A DNA stretch of 45,260 bases from Terriglobia bacterium (lineage in GTDB: Bacteria > Acidobacteriota > Terriglobia > Bryobacterales > Bryobacteraceae), in NCBI GenBank assembly GCA_020073615.1, contig JAIQEX010000042.1, forward strand, positions 1 to 45,260, in the 5' to 3' direction. Numbering within the stretch: position 1 is the first letter of the stretch; each line of letters opens with the position of its first letter. Under the pieces are notes generated by a model. That model was not told the origin of the DNA. It worked only from the letters and a program-made list of their open reading frames with translations, and made no database searches. Below, one piece after another: positions 18,332 through 27,517 of the stretch. The position numbers and the translations under genes were made by a program.

Positions 18332-19378
18332 TCAGGCGGTCAACTGCAGGACGAACTGCTCCATGACGATGCGGTCGTCGGGGCGGGCGTCGCGCAGGCC
18401 GCGGTCCGCTTCGAAGATCAAAGACAGGGCGCGCGCCATCTGCGGGCCGCTGAATTTGGCGACGGTCTGATAGACCTGGTCGGCGCGCGAGGGCCACATG
18501 GGCACGCCCAGACGGGTGAAGTGACCCTGGATCTGCTGGGAACTTTTCAGGCCGGCTTCGCGGGCCGCCAGGGCCATGCGGAACTGCGTGGAGAGGAATG
18601 CCAGGGCCAGCGGCAGGTATTCGCCGTCGCGCACCAGGGTATCGAGAGTCTCCAGAGCGCGGGTGCGGTCGCGGCGGCCGAGGGCGTTCACCAGGGCGAA
18701 GATGGTGGTCGAGCGCGCATCCGGAACCAGGGCGGCGATGTCGTCCACGCCCACCGGGCGCGTGCCGGCGTAGAGCGACAGCTTCTCGATTTCCACAGCG
18801 ATGCGCGTGATGTCGGCGCCCAGGGCCTCCACCAGCAGATCGAGCGCGGCGGAGTCCAGGCGGACGCCGGCGCGCCGCACCAGGGCTTCGGCTTCGGTGC
18901 GGGCTTCGTGGGGAGCGAAGCGGCGCAGCTCGATCACCTCGCGCACGGCGCCGTAGAATTTGCGGACGCGGTCCAACTTGCGCTTGTCCTCGCCCTCGAA
19001 ATCGAAGCGGACCGCTTCGAAGACCACGGTGACGCCGGGCGTGGGGTCTTTCAGGTAGGCCGCAAGCGGAGCGGCATCGCCCGCGGCAGCGGCGTCGCCC
19101 TCGCCGTCTTCGCCGGCACGCGGGCGCGGCAACGGCGCCTCGGCATTGGCCACCCAGAGGAGGCGTTCGGAGGCGAACAGGGAAAGCGAGCGCGCATCGT
19201 CGAGCACCTCGGCGAGCGAGAGCTCCGCCAGATCGTGGCGCGCCACGGCGTCCTCGGGAAACGTGGCGGTGAGCGCCTCCTTCACGCGGCGGCGCTGGTA
19301 GGCTTCGGGGCCGAGCAGGAGGAGGGCGGGGGGCAGATCGCGTTTCTGGATGCGGGCGGCGAGCTGGCCGGCGGTCAC
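18332..19378 (-). CDS. holA: DNA polymerase III delta subunit
   Basis: 348 residues from a GTG at 19378, 2 nt after the lptE stop. The delta subunit opens the beta sliding clamp in the clamp-loader complex. Visible features: PALLLLGPEAYQRRRVKEAL near the N-terminus, VVFEAVRFD in the central domain, LGADITRIAVEIEKLSLYAG and STTIFALVNALGRRDR in the third domain, and a helical C-terminus. An alanine-rich insertion (DGEGDAAAAGDAAP, about 90-103) is unusual. lptE-holA is a conserved order. Confidence 0.92.
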   Translation of the reverse strand: MTAGQLAARIQKRDLPPALLLLGPEAYQRRRVKEALTATFPEDAVARHDLAELSLAEVLDDARSLSLFASERLLWVANAEAPLPRPRAGEDGEGDAAAAGDAAPLAAYLKDPTPGVTVVFEAVRFDFEGEDKRKLDRVRKFYGAVREVIELRRFAPHEARTEAEALVRRAGVRLDSAALDLLVEALGADITRIAVEIEKLSLYAGTRPVGVDDIAALVPDARSTTIFALVNALGRRDRTRALETLDTLVRDGEYLPLALAFLSTQFRMALAAREAGLKSSQQIQGHFTRLGVPMWPSRADQVYQTVAKFSGPQMARALSLIFEADRGLRDARPDDRIVMEQFVLQLTA

Positions 19379-19380
19379 GG

Positions 19381-19911
19381 CTAGAAAGCCTCCAGGATGC
19401 CGGTAACGACGCTGCGCGCCACGTCGCGGCTGACGCGGATCATGGCGGTGCCGCTCTCGTCGAAGTAGGTTTTGGGATCGATGGCGACTTCGTATCGCTC
19501 GCGGAACTCGGCGCCGGTGCGCGAATAGAGGACCTTGGCGGTGTGGCGATCGGTCAGAGCGAGTTGCAGGATGACGACGACCTGCACCCCGGTGGAGCGG
19601 CCGGTGACCGGATCGGAAGTGGTGGGAAACGCGCTGAAGTTGGCGATGGCGCCGGTGAGCACGGCGTCGGCCTGAGCGGGGTCGGCGACAATGGCGTAGT
19701 GGGTGCGCGAGAGGAACTCGCGAGTGATGTCGGCGGGCAGCAGGCGGGCCAGTTGGTAGCGCGTGGTGACGTTGCCGAAAGCAGGGATGGCGATGGTCTT
19801 GATGTTGGCGGGAATCAGCGCGGCGCGTCCGGCGAGGTGATAGCCGCAGCCGGCGACGAAGGGGAGCGCGGCGCAGGCGAAGACGAAGGGAGCGAGCCGG
19901 GCGCGGGTCAT
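19381..19911 (-). CDS. lptE: LPS-assembly lipoprotein LptE
   Basis: 176 residues. Lipoprotein signal with lipobox VAGC (FVFACAALPFVAGCGYHLAG). LptE plugs the LptD barrel and helps insert LPS in the outer membrane. Family features: ANIKTIAIPAFGNVTTRY, LTGAIANFSAFP. The ATG at 19911 overlaps the stop of the Asd-like gene by 4 nt, and holA follows at once. Its presence supports an LPS-bearing, two-membrane cell. Confidence 0.88.
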   Translation of the reverse strand: MTRARLAPFVFACAALPFVAGCGYHLAGRAALIPANIKTIAIPAFGNVTTRYQLARLLPADITREFLSRTHYAIVADPAQADAVLTGAIANFSAFPTTSDPVTGRSTGVQVVVILQLALTDRHTAKVLYSRTGAEFRERYEVAIDPKTYFDESGTAMIRVSRDVARSVVTGILEAF

Positions 19912-20915
19912 AGGAGTTGCCGGGCGACCAGGATGGCGTTTTCCGCGGAGAGCCGGAAATTGTCGCCCACCAGCCAGAACCAGCAGGCCTCGGGCTGATT
20001 GCGGTCGGGGGCGATGGCGCCCACGGCGATGCCGCTCTGCCCCGCCTGGCCGACGATGGTGGGCGGCTCGAGGCCGCTGCCGCGGACTTCGATGGGCTGG
20101 ATGGCCAGGCTGCTCTCCAGGGCCTCGACGCCGGGGTTGCCCTCGAATTCCACCCACGCGGAAAAACTGTACCCGTGAAAGACCGGCGCCTGGACGAGGC
20201 GGAGCGAGGGCATGGGCGCGCCTTCGCCATCGCCGGGGAGGGCGAGCAGAGTGGCCAGATGGCGCTCCACGCGCAGCTCGGATTCCTCGAGGGCCACGGG
20301 CGCCTCTTCGCCGTAGCGGGCCAGCAGGTTGAAGCTGAGCTGGGTATCGAAGACGGCGTGCGGCAGGCTTTTGAAAGAGAGCAGGCTGATGGTCTGCTGC
20401 TGCAGCTCCTCGACGGCGGCGGCGCCGTGCTCGCTGGCGGGGGCGAAGATCTGGATGACGGAGCGGCGGATGGGGTCGTGCGCCTGCAGGCGGCGCAGGA
20501 ACAGCGCCAGGGCGAGGGCGGCGGGGTGGGCGATCACGTGGACGCGCGCGCCGGAGTCGTCGGGATCGGCAGCGGATTCGACCAGCGGGGCGCGCAGGCG
20601 CGCGTCGGGGAGCTCTTCGGCGGCATAGGTGAGGTCGATGATGGCGGCGGGATCGTCCGCGAGAAGTTCGAGAGTCTTTTCGCTCGATGCCGGGGAGCCG
20701 GCCAGAAAAACGGCGCGCGCTCCCGCGAGATTTTCAGCATCGAGACTGGCGACCAGGGCCGGCTCGTCGCCCACGCGCGTGAGCAGGCCGGCGGGCTCAT
20801 CGTCGGCGATCAGGCGGAGCTCGAGACCGGTCACGGTGGTGGCCACGATGTCGCGGATTTCGCGGCCGAGCAGGGATTCGGAGCCGACCAGGGCCACGGG
20901 CTGCCGGTTAGCCAA
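19908..20915 (-). CDS. Aspartate-semialdehyde-dehydrogenase-like protein lacking the catalytic cysteine
   Basis: 335 residues from a TTG at 20915 (GGAG eight nt upstream; overlaps the pssA stop by 8 nt). The N-terminal Rossmann part is PVALVGSESLLGREI. The C-terminal dimerisation-type domain has APASEHGAAAVEELQQQT, the counterpart of the SGAG...ELxxQ segment of Asd. Where Asd has its NPNCST nucleophile this protein has IAHPAALAL (128-136), and its only Cys is near the C-terminus. His247 (APVFHGYS), matching the Asd base, remains. Hence probably not an active Asd, but a USG-1-like or regulatory/structural paralogue. It is coupled to pssA and lptE. Confidence 0.75.
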   Translation of the reverse strand: MANRQPVALVGSESLLGREIRDIVATTVTGLELRLIADDEPAGLLTRVGDEPALVASLDAENLAGARAVFLAGSPASSEKTLELLADDPAAIIDLTYAAEELPDARLRAPLVESAADPDDSGARVHVIAHPAALALALFLRRLQAHDPIRRSVIQIFAPASEHGAAAVEELQQQTISLLSFKSLPHAVFDTQLSFNLLARYGEEAPVALEESELRVERHLATLLALPGDGEGAPMPSLRLVQAPVFHGYSFSAWVEFEGNPGVEALESSLAIQPIEVRGSGLEPPTIVGQAGQSGIAVGAIAPDRNQPEACWFWLVGDNFRLSAENAILVARQLL

Positions 20916-21795
20916 CCTGGTGCTCCGGGGCGGGGCGCTGCGAATGGCGCAGGCGACGACGAACGATGCCGCCGATGCGGATGGCAATGCCGCTGCCCAC
21001 ATAAGCGACGCTCAGGGAGAGGAGCAGGGGCTGAGGCCACATAGCGGTGGCGAAAATCAAGCCTCCCAGCAGGATGATGAGCAGCGGGGTGTAGGGCTTG
21101 CGCAGGTTGATGCCCTTGAAGCTGTAGTAGCGCCAGGTGCTCACCATGAGGAAGCCGAGCAGCAACAGGAGCGCGAGCCAGGCGACGGAAAGCGGCCACC
21201 AGGCGATGGGCTCGGCATCGCTGGCGTAGACCACGGCGGCGACCAGGGCGGCGGCGGCCGGTATGGGCAGGCCGACGAAGTATTTGCGATCGGGCCGGCC
21301 GGGATTCTTGGGGATGGGGTTCTTCTGAATGTTGAAGCGGGCCAGGCGGGCCGAGCCGCACAGCAGAAAAAGAAACGCGATGAAGTAGCCGGCGTTGAAC
21401 AGATGGCGGAGCACCGGTTCGCCGAATGCGGGCTGGACGAACTGCACGCCCCAGGCATAAGCCAGGATGGCGGGCGCCATGCCGAAGCTGATGACGTCGG
21501 CGAGGGAATCCATTTCGCGGCCGAAATCGCTGGTGGTGTTGGTGAGGCGCGCGATGCGGCCATCGAGCCCGTCGAGGAAGACGGCGGCACCGATGGCTTT
21601 GGCGGCGAAGGCGAAATGGTCCGACGACGCGGCGGGGTTCGACGCCGCCAGCATGGCGCCTCGGAAAGAGCGCAGGATGGACAGATAGCCGAGGAAGATA
21701 TTGCCCGCGGTGAAGAGCGTGGGCAGGGCGTAGGCCGCGCGGCGCCGGCCGCGGTGGGGCGAGCGTGGATCCGCCAGCCGCTCTTTAGGCCCCAT
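20908..21795 (-). CDS. pssA: CDP-diacylglycerol-serine O-phosphatidyltransferase
   Basis: 295 residues. Makes phosphatidylserine from CDP-diacylglycerol and serine in the membrane. The CDP-alcohol transferase signature is complete: LDGLDGRIARLTNTTSDFG continuing into REMDSLAD (DG-x2-AR-x8-G-x3-D-x3-D). About seven hydrophobic segments follow the family pattern (LPTLFTAGNIFLGYLSI at the start). The ATG at 21795 overlaps the end of psd by 11 nt; psd consumes its product, so the pair forms the phosphatidylethanolamine branch. Confidence 0.93.
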   Translation of the reverse strand: MGPKERLADPRSPHRGRRRAAYALPTLFTAGNIFLGYLSILRSFRGAMLAASNPAASSDHFAFAAKAIGAAVFLDGLDGRIARLTNTTSDFGREMDSLADVISFGMAPAILAYAWGVQFVQPAFGEPVLRHLFNAGYFIAFLFLLCGSARLARFNIQKNPIPKNPGRPDRKYFVGLPIPAAAALVAAVVYASDAEPIAWWPLSVAWLALLLLLGFLMVSTWRYYSFKGINLRKPYTPLLIILLGGLIFATAMWPQPLLLSLSVAYVGSGIAIRIGGIVRRRLRHSQRPAPEHQVG

Positions 21796-22426
21796 GCGGC
21801 TGCTCCTGGCGGCGGCGCGCGATGACGCTGGAGCCGGCGGCGACGCGCATGCCGGGGCGCACCACGATTTCCCACTCGGGGCCGAACAGGACGTCCACGC
21901 GCGAGCCGAACTTGATGAGGCCGACGCGCTCGCCGGCGGCGACGGTATCGCCAGGCCGCTTGTGGAACACAATGCGGCGCGCGATCAGCCCGGCGATCTG
22001 CTTGAAGACCACCGAGGTGCCCTCGCCCTGGACGGTGACCACGTTCTGTTCATTGCGCTGGGAGCACTCTTCGCGGCTGGCCACGTGAAACTGTCCCTCC
22101 TGGTAGTGGACGCTCCCGATGGTTCCGGCAATGGGCGCGCGGTTGACGTGCACATCGAAAATGTTGAGGAAGATACTGATGCGATTGGTGGCGGGGCCTT
22201 CGGCCTTCACGGCGACGACCTTGCCATCGGCGGGCGCCACGGCCACGGGGCCGGAGGGAACCTGGCGCTCGGGGTCGCGGAAAAAATAGAGGCAGAAGAG
22301 CGCCAGCAGCCAGAGCGGAACGGCGAAGCCCGGCCCGGAGAGCCAGGAGACAAGGCCGCCCGCGGCAATGAGCGCCGCTGCGTAATAGATGCCGTCGATT
22401 ACGATCACCTGGTACCATTTTTGCAT
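21785..22426 (-). CDS. psd: Phosphatidylserine decarboxylase, short (PSD-A) type
   Basis: 213 residues, the short archaeal/bacterial form. Converts phosphatidylserine to phosphatidylethanolamine with a pyruvoyl group made by self-cleavage; the cleavage site is KFGSRVD with Gly174/Ser175. Other motifs: YFFRDPERQVP, VAPADGKV, FLNIFDVHVNRAP, HKRPGD. An N-terminal membrane segment spans about 10-47. The ATG sits at the foot of a 26-bp inverted repeat (22425-22501) and has no Shine-Dalgarno sequence; no better start is seen. Next is pssA, overlapping by 11 nt. Confidence 0.93.
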   Translation of the reverse strand: MQKWYQVIVIDGIYYAAALIAAGGLVSWLSGPGFAVPLWLLALFCLYFFRDPERQVPSGPVAVAPADGKVVAVKAEGPATNRISIFLNIFDVHVNRAPIAGTIGSVHYQEGQFHVASREECSQRNEQNVVTVQGEGTSVVFKQIAGLIARRIVFHKRPGDTVAAGERVGLIKFGSRVDVLFGPEWEIVVRPGMRVAAGSSVIARRRQEQPHGA

Positions 22427-22501
22427 TTCGGTGACAGGCTACGAAACCCCCAAATGCGAAATGCGGCTGGATTTAGGGGTTACGTAGCCTGTCACCGAAA
22501 T
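22425..22501. repeat. 26-bp near-perfect inverted repeat spanning the psd start
   Basis: Arms at 22425-22450 and 22476-22501 (core TCGGTGACAGGCTACG) match at 25 of 26 positions around a 25-nt loop. The left arm includes the first bases of psd; the right arm supplies the last nine codons of the upstream gene. As RNA it would form a very stable hairpin at the psd initiation site. It could be a small non-autonomous mobile repeat, an attenuator, or both. Confidence 0.85.
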
Positions 22502-24113
22502 TGTGGACGGTGATGGCCGTCAGCGGGACCGTCTGACGGCTGGAGGGCTCGATCGTGACGGCGATGGAGAGCTTCTCGAAGGGCTTGCGGAATTCCGGGT
22601 CCTGCGGCGCGCCGGGATCGGCGTCCAGCCACGCGAAGAGGCGGTAGTCGCCGGGGGCGACATCCTGGAAAACGTAATCGCCCTTATCGTCGCTGGTGGC
22701 GATCTTCCGGCGGTCCGCGCGGGCGCCATCGGGAATCAGGGTGACGCGCACCGACGGGGCCGGCTCGCCCTCGGCGTTGAGGACTTGTCCCTCGATGCGG
22801 CCGCCATCGGTGGCGAGCACCAGGGTGATGGCACGGGCGCCGCCCGTGAGATCCACTTCGAGATTGGGCAGGACGCGGTCGCCGAGCTTGACCGACTTCA
22901 GGTACGCGCCGCGAGGCACGGGCATGACGTGAAGCTGGTAGGTTTCCGGCAGGACGTTGTGGATCGCGAACGCGCCGTCGGCATCCACGGTGGCGTTGCC
23001 GCCGCCGGGGCCCGGCTCCTGCGATTGCAGCAACACGCGGAGGTTGGTGAGCGGAGAGGGGAGCGTGCCTTCCACTTTCACCGCGCCCGGAACGTCGATG
23101 CCGGGCACGAAGTCGAGCGTGGGGACTTCGACGTCGTGGTCCACGATCTCCACGAAGTGGCGCGCATACTGCACCTGCCCCTTGGTCTCGGTGCCTCCGT
23201 GGGTGGCGGTCAACACGTAGGGGCCGGGCGGGACCCCGGCAAATTCGAAGAAGCCGTTGTACATCCGCTGGACCCAGCCTCCGCGGGACGGGGCGGCTTC
23301 CGGGGAGCGCCTCTGCAATGTCATGCCGGAGAAAGGCGTGCCGGGCGACGACTCGGGGAGCTTAACGCGAACGGAATAGACGGCCTCGCGCTGGAGCCGT
23401 ATGTCGACATTGGTCAGCTCGGCGCCGGGTTTCAGTTCGAGCGGCGCAGTCTGGGCCACGTCGCGCGCGCCGGGGTAGAAGGTAGTAGCGAAACCCAGCT
23501 CGGGAGGCGCGCCGCGTATCCGTTCATTGGGCATGTTGAAGGCCAGCATAGTGCCGGGCCCGGGCCGCACCGCGGCGCGCAGGTAGTAACTGCCGGGCGG
23601 GATGCCGTAGGCGCGGTATTCGCCACGGTCGTTGGTGGGGGCCGACCTGACGACCGACAGTTGTCTCTTTCCGGAAACATAGGAGTAGCGCAGGACCTCG
23701 ACATAGGCGGCGCGGATGGGGTCTCCCTCCTGATCGACGGTGCGGCCGGAGATGACGCCATCGGGAATCAATTGCAGGCTAACGACGGCGTGCTGTCCGG
23801 GTTCCAGGGTGACGATCATGGGGTCGGCGGCGCGGTCGGGCAGGCGGTCGGTGAAGCTGGGGTGTGAGGGGAGGGCCTGGTATTTGCCGGGCGGAACGTT
23901 TTCGATCTTGAAGCGACCGTCGGCGCCGGCCTCGGTGAGGTAGGTGTCGACGTCGGGAGGTGTCCCCGAGCGCACCGTGCCGCGCAGTGCGACGGTGGCC
24001 TTGCGGACCGGCTTGCCGTCCAGGGTGTTGGTGACGCGACCCTCGACGGTGGCGGGCTGAGCGGCCAGCGTGGCGGCGGCGGCGAGGAGAATCGGCAGGG
24101 CGCGCGAGATCAT
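22473..24113 (-). CDS. Secreted carboxypeptidase-regulatory-like protein B' (duplicated copy)
   Basis: 546 residues. Signal peptide MISRALPILLAAAATLAAQ. A row of carboxypeptidase-regulatory-like (Ig-type) beta modules follows, each around motifs such as VEGRVTN, DGKPVRKATVALRG, GRFKIENVPPGKY, VISGRTVDQEGDPI, GRIEGQVLNAEGEP and GDYVFQDVAPGDYRLFAW. Such proteins are abundant in Solibacter-like bacteria; function unknown, possibly surface adhesion or polymer binding. It is a paralogue of 25898-27517. The last nine residues (NFGDRLRNP) come from an inverted repeat and replace the PASR end of the paralogue. Start overlaps A' by 4 nt. Confidence 0.85.
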   Translation of the reverse strand: MISRALPILLAAAATLAAQPATVEGRVTNTLDGKPVRKATVALRGTVRSGTPPDVDTYLTEAGADGRFKIENVPPGKYQALPSHPSFTDRLPDRAADPMIVTLEPGQHAVVSLQLIPDGVISGRTVDQEGDPIRAAYVEVLRYSYVSGKRQLSVVRSAPTNDRGEYRAYGIPPGSYYLRAAVRPGPGTMLAFNMPNERIRGAPPELGFATTFYPGARDVAQTAPLELKPGAELTNVDIRLQREAVYSVRVKLPESSPGTPFSGMTLQRRSPEAAPSRGGWVQRMYNGFFEFAGVPPGPYVLTATHGGTETKGQVQYARHFVEIVDHDVEVPTLDFVPGIDVPGAVKVEGTLPSPLTNLRVLLQSQEPGPGGGNATVDADGAFAIHNVLPETYQLHVMPVPRGAYLKSVKLGDRVLPNLEVDLTGGARAITLVLATDGGRIEGQVLNAEGEPAPSVRVTLIPDGARADRRKIATSDDKGDYVFQDVAPGDYRLFAWLDADPGAPQDPEFRKPFEKLSIAVTIEPSSRQTVPLTAITVHNFGDRLRNP

Positions 24114-25834
24114 GGCAGCTTGCTCTTGGCCTGCTCGATCTCCTCGGTGGTGATGAGCTTCACACTCACCGTGTCGCGGCCGTTGGCGTGGACGGTCAGC
24201 GAGGCGCCCTGGTGCGCGAACAGTTTGCGGAAGTCGGGCGACTGGATGAAGTTCATATCGCCGAAGTTCTCCAGGGCCAGGACCTGGTAATCGCCGGGCG
24301 GAAGACCGCTGATGGTGGCGTTGCCGTTCGGGTCGGTAAAGCCGGTGCGGAACATGTCGCGGCGCGCCGCGAAATCGCCTTCCGGGATGGCGATCACGGG
24401 GATACGTGCGGCGGGATCGCCGCTGGCGGATCGCACCGAGACGGCGACCTGGCCGGAGTCGGAAGCGAGGGTCAGGGTGAGCGTGGCGCCGGCGATGGCG
24501 TCGATGCGTCCCGCGGAGACATCCTGGTCGCCGAGCCGGATGGACTTGAGGTAGTAGCCTTCCGCCGGTGGGGAGCTCAACTGGAGGTCGTACGCCTGGG
24601 GCACGACGTTTTCCAGCACAAAGGAGCCGTCCTCCTGAACGCCGGCGTTGGCGTACATACCGCCGTAAGGCTCGGCGGGCGACAGCATGACGCGGATGTT
24701 CTTGAAGCTTTCGGGCGGAGGTCCTTCGGCGGCGACGACGCCCTTGAGCGCAAACGACGGGCTGACGGCGACCACGACGCCATCGACATCCTGATCGGCA
24801 ACGCTCACCGTCTGGCGGCCAAAGCTCGTCTTGCCGCCCTGGTTGGATTGGATGGTGAGGCAATATGGCCCGGGGATGAGGCCGCGAAGGTCGAAGGCGC
24901 CATCCGGCTGCAACCCCGCCGATGTCTGGTAGCCCCAGCGGTCAGAGCCGGAGGCGCAAGGGAGCGCCGAGATGCCCGCGCCGTGGACGGGCTGCTGGGT
25001 CTGGGCGTCGACGGCGGTGCCGCGGATACGATAGACGCGCACTTTATGGACGCGGAAGTCGATGCCGGTGACTTCGGCGCCGGGGGTGACATCGGCGGCG
25101 GTGGCGCTGGTGACGTCGGCCGCGGCGGGGTAGAAGGTGGCGGGGAAGCCTTCGTCGGGGCGATCGCGGTGCATGCGTCCGGATGCCTGCGGACCCGCGG
25201 GACGGGCGACCGCCTGGATATAGACGTGACCGGGCTGGAGGTCGAAGATGCGATATTCGCCGTGGTCGTCGGTGGTGTCGCTTCCGCGCTGGGCCAGCCG
25301 TTTCGCGCCCTGCTGGTAATCGAACTGGAGGGCGCGCACGATCAGGCTGGGGATGGGATCGCCGTCTTCGTCGAGCACTTTGCCCGAAATCACGCCGAGC
25401 GGCGACAATTGCAGGGCAGCGCCGGTGACGTGCTGCTCTTCGGCGACGGCGAGGGGCTGTAAGGAGAACATGCTGCGGCCGCTGGGCATCTGGAAGCTAA
25501 AGCCGGGGCAGGCAGCGGTCAGCATGTAGGCGGCGTCGGGCTCTACGCTGTCGAACAAAAAGTGGCCGGCGGCATCGGTGGTGGCGACGTAGGAGTACTG
25601 GCCGCGCAGATTGCGGAGGTTGACGGTGGCCTTCTTGACGGGCGCGTGGGTTACCGAGTTGCTGACCACGCCTTCCACGGTGCCGGGTTTCTTGGGCGGG
25701 CCGGTAGGAACGGGAGGCAGGTCCATGCCGGGGAGCCGCATGCCGGGCCCGCCTCTTCCTCCGCCGCCCACGACCTGGGCAGTGAGAAGCGCCGCGGCGA
25801 GGGAGTAAGTCACCAGCAAGCTAATAAGTTTCAT
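24110..25834 (-). CDS. Secreted carboxypeptidase-regulatory-like protein A' (duplicated copy)
   Basis: 574 residues from the ATG at 25834; this start aligns with the paralogue at 29187 (a GTG at 25855 is also open). Signal peptide MKLISLLVTYSLAAALLTAQ, then a Gly/Pro-rich linker that is longer than in the paralogue. Repeated Ig-type modules: GTVEGVVSNSVTHAPVKKAT, GVISGKVLDEDGDPIP, GEYRIFDLQPGHVYIQA, YRIRGTAVDAQTQQP, DGSFVLENVVPQAYDLQL, NATISGLPPGDYQVLA. No enzymatic motif is seen. It is coupled to B' by an ATGA overlap. Confidence 0.85.
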   Translation of the reverse strand: MKLISLLVTYSLAAALLTAQVVGGGGRGGPGMRLPGMDLPPVPTGPPKKPGTVEGVVSNSVTHAPVKKATVNLRNLRGQYSYVATTDAAGHFLFDSVEPDAAYMLTAACPGFSFQMPSGRSMFSLQPLAVAEEQHVTGAALQLSPLGVISGKVLDEDGDPIPSLIVRALQFDYQQGAKRLAQRGSDTTDDHGEYRIFDLQPGHVYIQAVARPAGPQASGRMHRDRPDEGFPATFYPAAADVTSATAADVTPGAEVTGIDFRVHKVRVYRIRGTAVDAQTQQPVHGAGISALPCASGSDRWGYQTSAGLQPDGAFDLRGLIPGPYCLTIQSNQGGKTSFGRQTVSVADQDVDGVVVAVSPSFALKGVVAAEGPPPESFKNIRVMLSPAEPYGGMYANAGVQEDGSFVLENVVPQAYDLQLSSPPAEGYYLKSIRLGDQDVSAGRIDAIAGATLTLTLASDSGQVAVSVRSASGDPAARIPVIAIPEGDFAARRDMFRTGFTDPNGNATISGLPPGDYQVLALENFGDMNFIQSPDFRKLFAHQGASLTVHANGRDTVSVKLITTEEIEQAKSKLP

Positions 25835-25897: not shown

Positions 25898-27517
25898 CTA
25901 CCGGCTTGCGGGCTTGACGGTGATGGTGTTCAGAGGCACAGTGTGGCGGCTGGAGGGCTCGACCGTGACGGCGACGGAAAGCTTCTCGAAGGGCTTGCGG
26001 AATTCCGCGTCCAACGGGGCGCCGGCCTCGGCGTTCTGCCAGGCGAAGAGGCGATAGCCGCCGGGCGCGATTTCCTGAAACAGGTACTCGCCCTCATCGC
26101 CGGTGGTGGCGGTTTTCAGGCGGTCGGGGCGGCCGCGGTGGGCGCCGTCGGGCACCAGAGTGATGGTTACAGATGCGGCCGGTTGACCTTCGGCGTTGCG
26201 GACTTGCCCCTCGATGCGGCCGCCGTCGGTGGCGAGCAGAATGGTGATGGCGCGGGCGCCGCCGGTGAGATCCACTTCGAGATCGGGCAGGACGCGGTCG
26301 CCGAGCTTGACCGCCTTGAGATACGCGCCGCGGGGCACGGGTGCGACGTGGAGCTGGCAGGGCTCGGGCAGCGCGTAGTGGATTACGAACGCGCCATCGG
26401 CATCCACGAAAGCGTTGCCTCCGTCGGGGCCCGGCTCCCGCGGTAGCAGGATCACGCGCATGTTCTGGAGCGGGGAGGAAAGGGCGCCCTCCACTTTCAC
26501 CGTGCCCGCGACCTCGATGGTGGATACGAAATCCAGAGCGGGAACCTCGACGTCGTGGTCCGTCACCTCTACGAACTGGCGCGCAAACTGCACCGGTCCC
26601 TTGCCGACGGCGCCGGCCAGCGCCGCGGTCAGCACAAAGGAACCGGGAGGGACGCCGTCGAATTCGAAAGCACCGTTCCGCATAGTCTGGGAATAGCCGC
26701 CAAACGGATCGGAATCCGGAGGCCGCCTCAGCAGGGTGATGTTGGGGTAACGCGAGGAGCCGTCGAGCGGCTCGGGAAGTTTGACGCGGACGGAGTAGAC
26801 CATCTCGCGCAGGAGCCGTATGTCGACGTTGGTCAGCTCCGCGCCGGGCTTGAGCTCGAGCGGCGCCGTCTGCGCGGCCTCGCGGGCGTCGGGGTAGAAC
26901 GTGGCCGCGAAACTCCGGGCAGGCTGCGTGCGGCGTGGGCGCTCGTTGTTCATCACTATGCCCCCAGCGGGAGGCGCCGAGGCCCGCAAGTAGTAACTGC
27001 CTGGGGGGAGGCCGTAGGCGCGGTATTCGCCGCGGTCGTTGGTGACGGCCGACCTGACTCCCGACAGTTGTCTCCTTCCGTATAAATAGGAGTAGTGCAG
27101 GACCTCGACGCCGGCATTGCGGAGTGGATCTCCGTCCTGATCGACTACCCTGCCGGAGATGACGCCATCGGGAACCAACTGCAGCGCGAGGACGGCGTGC
27201 TGCCCGGGTTCCAGAGTCAGTAGCGTGGGACCGGCCAGGGGTTCGGGGAGACCGGCGGTGAAGCCGCTGTGCGAGGGCATGACCTGGTATTTGCCGGGAG
27301 GGAGGTAGACCTGGAAACGGCCAGTGGAGCCGGTCTCGGTGACATAGCTGTCGACATTGGGAGGGGTCCCCGAGCGCACTGTGCCGCGCAGCATGACGGT
27401 GGCCTCGCGAACCGGCTTGCCGTCCACGGTATTAGTGACCCGCCCTTCAACGGTGGCGGGCTGAGCGGCGAGCGCACCGGCAGCCGCAAGCAGCATCGAA
27501 ACGGCGCGCACGATCAT
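25898..27517 (-). CDS. Secreted carboxypeptidase-regulatory-like protein B
   Basis: 539 residues. Signal peptide (MIVRAVSMLLAAAGALAAQ), then Ig-type modules in the same order as the paralogue at 22473-24113 and largely the same residues (VEGRVTNTVDGKPVREATVM, GVISGRVVDQDGDPL, GAYLKAVKLGDRVLPDLEVD, GRIEGQVRNAEGQP). It ends ITVKPASR, which appears to be the ancestral C-terminus. Coupled to A by a 4-nt overlap. Function unknown. Confidence 0.85.
   Translation of the reverse strand: MIVRAVSMLLAAAGALAAQPATVEGRVTNTVDGKPVREATVMLRGTVRSGTPPNVDSYVTETGSTGRFQVYLPPGKYQVMPSHSGFTAGLPEPLAGPTLLTLEPGQHAVLALQLVPDGVISGRVVDQDGDPLRNAGVEVLHYSYLYGRRQLSGVRSAVTNDRGEYRAYGLPPGSYYLRASAPPAGGIVMNNERPRRTQPARSFAATFYPDAREAAQTAPLELKPGAELTNVDIRLLREMVYSVRVKLPEPLDGSSRYPNITLLRRPPDSDPFGGYSQTMRNGAFEFDGVPPGSFVLTAALAGAVGKGPVQFARQFVEVTDHDVEVPALDFVSTIEVAGTVKVEGALSSPLQNMRVILLPREPGPDGGNAFVDADGAFVIHYALPEPCQLHVAPVPRGAYLKAVKLGDRVLPDLEVDLTGGARAITILLATDGGRIEGQVRNAEGQPAASVTITLVPDGAHRGRPDRLKTATTGDEGEYLFQEIAPGGYRLFAWQNAEAGAPLDAEFRKPFEKLSVAVTVEPSSRHTVPLNTITVKPASR

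Follow-up and report, generated by a model that had tools for sequence, protein, structure and literature searches.

An aspartate-semialdehyde dehydrogenase homolog without its catalytic cysteine, encoded with psd and pssA in Acidobacteriota: a putative Usg-like pseudoenzyme

The window analysed here is a 45,260-nucleotide stretch of DNA from a member of the Bryobacteraceae (Terriglobia, Acidobacteriota; assembly GCA_020073615.1, contig JAIQEX010000042.1, positions 1 to 45,260). On its minus strand, tightly packed in the order psd-pssA-asdL-lptE-holA, lie two phospholipid synthesis genes, a gene for a homolog of aspartate-semialdehyde dehydrogenase (Asd) hereafter called AsdL, an LPS-assembly lipoprotein gene and a gene for a DNA polymerase III subunit (Table 1). 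Neighbouring genes overlap by 11 nt (psd/pssA), 8 nt (pssA/AsdL, with the pssA stop codon at 20908-20910) and 4 nt (AsdL/lptE, with lptE starting at 19911), and holA, for which a GTG start was chosen by eye, begins just past lptE. The original prediction, made from the sequence of the window alone, had described the AsdL reading frame as coupled to both pssA and lptE, and the two overlaps are confirmed. Translation of AsdL would begin at a TTG (20913-20915) with GGAG 7 nt before it, a start context that is identical in the closest relative (L044). By eye, the lptE product carries a signal and a lipobox-like Cys. Elsewhere in the window, two long minus-strand ORFs (22473-24863 and 25898-27517) share the near-identical start of a secreted-looking protein, AAQPATVEGRVTNT.DGKPVR.ATV.LRGTVRSG, and are apparently neighbouring paralogues.

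Table 1. Features of the AsdL locus, in coordinates of the window
Feature	Coordinates	Strand	Basis
psd, phosphatidylserine decarboxylase	21785..22426	-	PF02666 142.2 bits, cut-off 22; NF003685 186.5, cut-off 183
pssA, CDP-diacylglycerol-serine O-phosphatidyltransferase	20908..21795	-	TIGR00473 120.4 bits, cut-off 107; PF01066
AsdL, Asd-fold pseudoenzyme (335 aa, TTG start)	19908..20915	-	Pfam, phmmer, AlphaFold
His130 codon, column of the Asn preceding the Asd nucleophile	20526..20528	-	multiple alignments
Pro131 codon, column of the Asd nucleophile Cys	20523..20525	-	multiple alignments; pairwise alignments place the column 1-2 residues later
His247 codon, family-specific conserved His, non-catalytic	20175..20177	-	alignments
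Tyr249 codon, column of the Asd acid-base His	20169..20171	-	alignments
lptE, LPS-assembly lipoprotein	19381..19911	-	PF04390 34.3 bits, cut-off 23
holA, DNA polymerase III delta subunit	18332..19378	-	TIGR01128 174.3 bits, cut-off 80, for 18332-19372

The markers of the Asd fold first noticed in this reading frame hold up well, with Pfam, phmmer and AlphaFold all placing the match far above chance. Pfam PF02774 (Semialdhyde_dhC) scores 39.5 bits on the window protein against a cut-off of 26, and no Pfam NAD-domain match is returned at E 0.001. The best phmmer match in the PDB is 2hjs, a USG-1 homolog (E 3.2e-16). An AlphaFold model, computed from 64 sequences (the window protein and 63 of the 80 loci from genome contigs), reaches a pLDDT of 89.9 and presents the Asd-type arrangement of Rossmann and dimerisation domains. 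Its top structural match is again 2hjs (Z 33.9, rmsd 3.0, 319 residues), tied with the true Asd 2gz3_B (Z 33.0), and entries of Asd type, malonyl-CoA reductases and entries of ArgC type make up the 50 structural matches listed. Given a highest 19-residue hydropathy of 1.5, AsdL would be a soluble protein, and a dimeric one if it resembles Asd.

The window protein stays below the cut-offs of the NCBIfam models for Asd and USG-1/Usg. The best model for the window protein is NF004224 (100.1 bits, cut-off 284); NF005957 gives 66.7 bits (cut-off 273) and the Asd model TIGR01296 gives 51.9 bits (cut-off 324.2), and no ArgC model is found among the matches at E 0.001. As controls, the true Asd at locus L155 scores 448.3 bits with TIGR01296, and E. 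coli Usg scores 289.3 bits with NF004224 and 683.5 bits with NF005957. In all six AsdL proteins scanned the best model carries an Asd name and always stays under its cut-off, so that annotation by best match would miscall these proteins.

The active site is where AsdL departs from Asd. Its nucleophile segment reads IAHPAALAL and its lone Cys is residue 311 of 335, in agreement with the early observation that the catalytic Cys is missing and the only Cys lies near the C-terminus. In multiple alignments that include E. coli Asd and true Asds from the phylum, Pro131 occupies the nucleophile column, preceded by His130; the pairwise phmmer registers pair the Cys of 2qz9 with Ala133 and that of 2hjs with Ala132. 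We favour the Pro131 register because intermediate sequences, reading NPHP (L141), SPHP (L125) and PAHP (L124), bridge to Asd. Judging from these alignments, the register of the loop is uncertain to the exact residue, and no register brings a Cys to the nucleophile position. Alignment with Asd and USG-1 proteins, which had been proposed as a check, places AsdL closest to USG-1.

Retention of the catalytic His, which the original prediction had seen in His247, proved to be a register error. In an ungapped stretch, F-H247-G-Y249 of AsdL aligns with F-Y-G-H of 2qz9; Tyr249, two residues after His247, therefore occupies the column of the acid-base His. The column of the substrate carboxylate Arg (Arg267) holds Gln242, that of the phosphate-site Arg101 holds Glu100 and that of the substrate amino-group Glu (Glu240) holds Ser; the phosphate-site Lys243 column holds Arg, a conservative change in a helix whose alignment is less certain. 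Residue roles are taken here from an excerpt of PMC3276109, which gives activities of <0.01% for Asd C136S and 1% for H277N.

These replacements recur across the phylum. Over 168 distinct AsdL proteins (distinct meaning a distinct aligned sequence, since some loci of our two collections belong to the same genome), the nucleophile column holds Pro in 148, Ala in 11, Ser in 5, Gly in 3 and a gap in 1, and in no case Cys, which extends the loss seen in the window across Acidobacteriota. The acid-base His (His274) is kept in 51 of the 168 and Arg267 in 13. Other positions are strongly kept in the family: Gln174 in 168/168, His247 in 159/168, His130 in 133/168 and Glu162 in 126/168, the last two falling to only 33/55 and 21/55, respectively, in AsdL of other classes. 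Five Cys-containing loci (L041, L155, L157, L270 and L271) were excluded as true Asds before counting. Since pssA was detected beside none of them (L270 having only 833 nt upstream), the rule that a pssA-adjacent copy has no Cys is independent of this exclusion. The loss of Asd catalysis in AsdL is well supported.

In the cofactor region, Gly11 (147/168), Ser161 (160/168), Gly164 (148/168) and Asp318 (160/168) are largely kept, and 147/168 proteins have an acid residue within positions 37-40, where the Asd rows L041, L155 and 2qz9 have Arg. Within the own family of the window genome, Gly11 is found in 96/100, Leu15 in 95/100, Gly73 in 96/100 and Asp318 in 99/100. The kept residues and the added acid residue are consistent with an altered but retained dinucleotide pocket. 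An Asp close to the end of beta-2 is also found in at least one true Asd (L155), which makes the acid residues a weak indicator of NAD, and a preference for NAD or NADP read from this position is suggestive only.

The genomes that carry AsdL speak for its independence from the aspartate pathway. The window genome has three members of the family, namely AsdL, ArgC and a complete Asd (C195) with an intact NPNCST motif, whose gene is followed by that of aspartokinase; a true asd elsewhere in the genome, which it had been suggested to look for, is thus present. We also considered 14 small genomes (1.9-2.9 Mb) of other classes with AsdL matches. Twelve have no Asd/ArgC NAD-domain match above 50 bits besides AsdL, and 11 of these 12 have no aspartokinase match above 45.4 bits either (cut-off 208.7); among the 11, four show a second NAD-domain match close to the cut-off of 26 (25.9-30.3 bits), and the G363 genome is only 80% complete. 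The twelfth, G427, has an aspartokinase and no Asd detected besides AsdL. A dimerisation-domain search in three of the 12 (G491, G427 and G335) returned AsdL only. Another of the 14, G418, has strong Asd/ArgC-type matches and no aspartokinase. AsdL is kept where no aspartyl-phosphate-making enzyme was detected.

AsdL occurs in most sampled genomes of its class and in many other Acidobacteriota. By similarity to the window protein, AsdL occurs in 34/37 genomes of the own family (the window genome included), in 0/20 genomes from other families of the order and in 3/4 further genomes of the class. Profile matches at E 0.001 or better, which take in some true Asds and some weak matches, were obtained in 262/299 genomes sampled from the class and 87/198 sampled from the phylum, and 59 regions from 58 of these 87 genomes form our phylum sample. 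Among genome contigs, 294 stretches encode a relative; 80 loci were taken from these, all but one of them titled as Acidobacteriota groups. The exception, a contig named Nevskia soli (NZ_CAJCHS010000186.1, L113), carries a Bryobacteraceae-like psd-pssA-AsdL arrangement, and its record name or binning looks doubtful. A tblastn search of plasmids gave 59 records, all below 60% identity; of the five listed, H4, the one inspected, is a true Asd with NPNC.

In a tree of 66 proteins, a branch with support 100/99 separates the 35 AsdL rows from the rest, and the Asd of the window genome and ArgC lie apart from them. AsdL and E. coli Usg group together with support 99/96, Usg being a single row and the branches long. 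The tree took 35 of 150 AsdL loci, four of them long-branched, and left out three other rows that are themselves AsdL and one duplicate; it is rooted for drawing only. One alignment used 36 of 38 references, without L008 and L041. Across seven pairs of relatives, dN/dS is 0.14-0.34 for asdL, 0.12-0.24 for pssA and 0.19-0.48 for lptE, and AsdL is under purifying selection. It is nevertheless dispensable in some lineages, because it is cleanly absent from six same-class loci in which psd, pssA and lptE stay contiguous. One copy (G349:C25:24352-24849, L281) has an in-frame TGA and is possibly a decaying gene or an assembly error.

Gene order was compared over loci with enough flanking sequence, leaving out those with <900 nt upstream or <1000 nt downstream of AsdL. 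Of 163 distinct AsdL, 153 have pssA as the immediately preceding gene in the same orientation: 95/97 in the own family, 12/13 in the other families of the class and 46/53 in other classes. The two remaining own-family cases also carry pssA and miss the gap rule, which leaves eight real exceptions (L131 and seven loci of other classes). In those seven, a DUF465 gene sits directly upstream of AsdL in place of pssA. DUF465 genes are found upstream in 38/50 loci of other classes and 12/13 of the class's other families and, with a single probe, in 0/78 own-family loci. In the group of loci comprising L130 (4406-4693), L141-L144, L247-L249, L251 and L253, a DUF465 protein often precedes the whole psd-pssA-AsdL series, and its gene directly adjoins AsdL where psd and pssA are not adjacent.

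Downstream, the neighbour depends on the lineage. In the class of the window, lptE follows AsdL in 100/109 cases (own family 93/96, other families 7/13), and the lptE profile used detected no such gene in other classes. The gene following AsdL in their 54 testable cases is msbA-like in 11, lolC-like in 2, yicC in 3 and of another kind in 24; in the remaining 14 it encodes an unnamed secreted protein, with a lolC-like gene coming next in ten and about 3 kb further on in four. Of 20 annotated neighbouring ORFs, those lying downstream of AsdL in other classes are msbA-like, yicC, gmk, coaBC, lolCE-like, lolD-like and clp genes, among others. MsbA, LolCE and LolD are called "like" here because their scores stay under the NCBIfam equivalog cut-offs. 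The unnamed secreted protein, at L148:7009-7833 and related loci, has about 275 residues and a signal-like start (by eye); it matches nothing in Pfam at E 0.01 or in NCBIfam at E 1e-10. The phospholipid/LPS setting recognised in the window is confirmed, and of the proposed conservation of a pssA-lptE context the pssA half stands across the phylum, while lptE was detected after AsdL solely in the window's own class. The widely conserved context is psd-pssA-AsdL, with frequent outer-membrane lipid, LPS or lipoprotein export genes. A cluster of the order ilvC-psd-pssA-leuA-asd is known and raises the idea that AsdL stands beside pssA as its relic; no leu gene is among the annotated ORFs downstream of AsdL in other classes, and the idea is not supported.

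We also looked for a tie to PssA itself. In the three genomes of one family (G498, G412 and G463, 3/3; 92-93% complete), AsdL is present, psd was undetected and pssA matches reach 27-29 bits; since these genomes keep AsdL with such weak pssA matches, PssA is not its sole partner, and the proposal that AsdL requires PssA is weakened. PssA residues compared over 158 distinct AsdL-plus and 27 AsdL-minus loci showed no clear docking signature.

Inactive Asd homologs are already known as USG-1/Usg, the precedent named in the original prediction, and AsdL is most like them in sequence and in structure (a tied top match); in the tree, with its single Usg row and long branches, the two group together. 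The likeness consists of an Asd fold with an impaired active site and a shared QAPVF motif. The details differ: E. coli Usg has Ser for Cys and keeps the His, 2hjs of P. aeruginosa has Asp for His and keeps a Cys in the loop, whereas in AsdL the nucleophile column is mostly Pro and the His column often Tyr, and the window protein scores below the cut-offs of both USG-1/Usg models given above. Asd shares with AsdL the fold, the length and part of the cofactor-site motifs, but its nucleophile, acid-base His and substrate Arg and Glu are replaced in AsdL; ArgC, too, has an active-site Cys, unlike AsdL. The neighbourhoods also part ways, as E. coli K-12 usg lies in pdxB-usg-truA-dedA-accD and AsdL neighbours psd, pssA, lptE and holA. 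AsdL is set apart by its residues, by its scores under the Usg cut-offs and by a conserved envelope-lipid context of its own. In E. coli (NC_000913.3, 2433012-2437851), usg is near dedA and accD, and the DedA family is described, in a source excerpt, as lipid-carrier flippases; because of this proximity the envelope-lipid setting may exceed Acidobacteriota. An excerpt of PMC6358828 links Salmonella usg to intracellular survival. A literature search found no paper on an Asd-like protein in a psd-pssA operon among the matches listed.

AsdL is best read as having taken on a new, non-Asd role: the residues that Asd needs are lost, absence of the Cys is conserved, envelope-lipid genes surround it and the gene is under selection. 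In this respect the earlier view of a dead enzyme recruited to a new role within an envelope operon stands, without its retained catalytic His and without lptE as a general partner. More specifically, we propose for AsdL a Usg-like pseudoenzyme that has come to serve as a non-catalytic accessory or regulatory protein of envelope-lipid supply and probably binds a ligand, a reading to which we give about an even chance. The Cys/His/Arg chemistry of an Asd-type ancestor would have been lost, probably early in the history of the Acidobacteriota, and the protein would have become a soluble accessory protein encoded with the genes of phosphatidylserine (PS) and phosphatidylethanolamine (PE) synthesis. 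A small ligand, dinucleotide or nucleotide, may still be bound in the old Rossmann pocket and, with AsdL contacting an enzyme or exporter, could tune or scaffold an envelope-lipid step. The likeliest target would be either PS synthase or the point at which lipid passes to the outer-membrane exporters encoded downstream. The envelope link itself comes from gene order, by association, and the binding or regulatory role and its mechanism are inferred. Dehydrogenase-like folds do serve as ligand-dependent regulators in the dead-dehydrogenase proteins NmrA, Gal80 and CtBP; AsdL is proposed to work alike, though the families differ, and a literature search on regulators of this type returned no match. 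In a more tentative version, AsdL would be a widely conserved pseudo-dehydrogenase sensor in which a nucleotide or redox signal in the pocket sets PS/PE synthesis against LPS or lipoprotein export.

Two other accounts are serious rivals, and the present results leave them and the ligand-regulated reading unseparated. AsdL could be a purely structural partner, a ligand-free protein that scaffolds or stabilises PssA or the lipid/LPS exporters, a view favoured by its overlaps with pssA and lptE in the window and by the conserved gene order; nor does the excerpt of PMC3276109 name the near-invariant Gln174, Glu170 and Phe195 as active-site residues. Such an account does not explain the constraint on the nucleotide-site region in the own family (Gly11, Leu15, Gly73 and Asp318), nor the genomes that retain AsdL with no PssA detected, and we hold it unlikely. 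Rather unlikely as well is an enzyme with non-covalent chemistry, for instance NAD-dependent reduction or isomerisation of a lipid-related substrate, working through His130, Glu162, Gln174 and His247. These conserved residues lie in or close to the former active-site motifs, and the Rossmann fold is intact in the predicted structure, but His130 and Glu162 vary in other classes, and none of the 50 structural matches listed has such chemistry by title.

The simpler explanations fare much worse. A functionless relic carried along in the operon might be suspected from the clean absences in some lineages and from the in-frame stop of the G349 copy, but dN/dS values near those of pssA contradict it, near-invariant residues persist across the whole phylum set, and AsdL remains beside DUF465 in seven loci without an adjoining psd-pssA; we consider it very improbable. 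Least probable of all, to the point of being nearly dismissed, is an active Asd that uses another nucleophile: the fold is there, and G427 has an aspartokinase and no other Asd detected, but the column is without Cys in 168 proteins and is mostly Pro, the substrate Arg and the His are replaced in the window protein, 11 genomes keep AsdL with no aspartokinase detected to make the substrate, and the window genome already has a complete Asd.

If the accessory reading of AsdL is right, the protein would be an added regulatory or structural player in phospholipid and outer-membrane biogenesis in a bacterial group common in soil. The psd-pssA linkage found in many lineages makes the role of an inactive Asd homolog testable in the cell envelope. 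Should the sensor version hold true, envelope-lipid control would gain a layer so far unrecognised, and AsdL would offer a clue to the function of Usg-type proteins.
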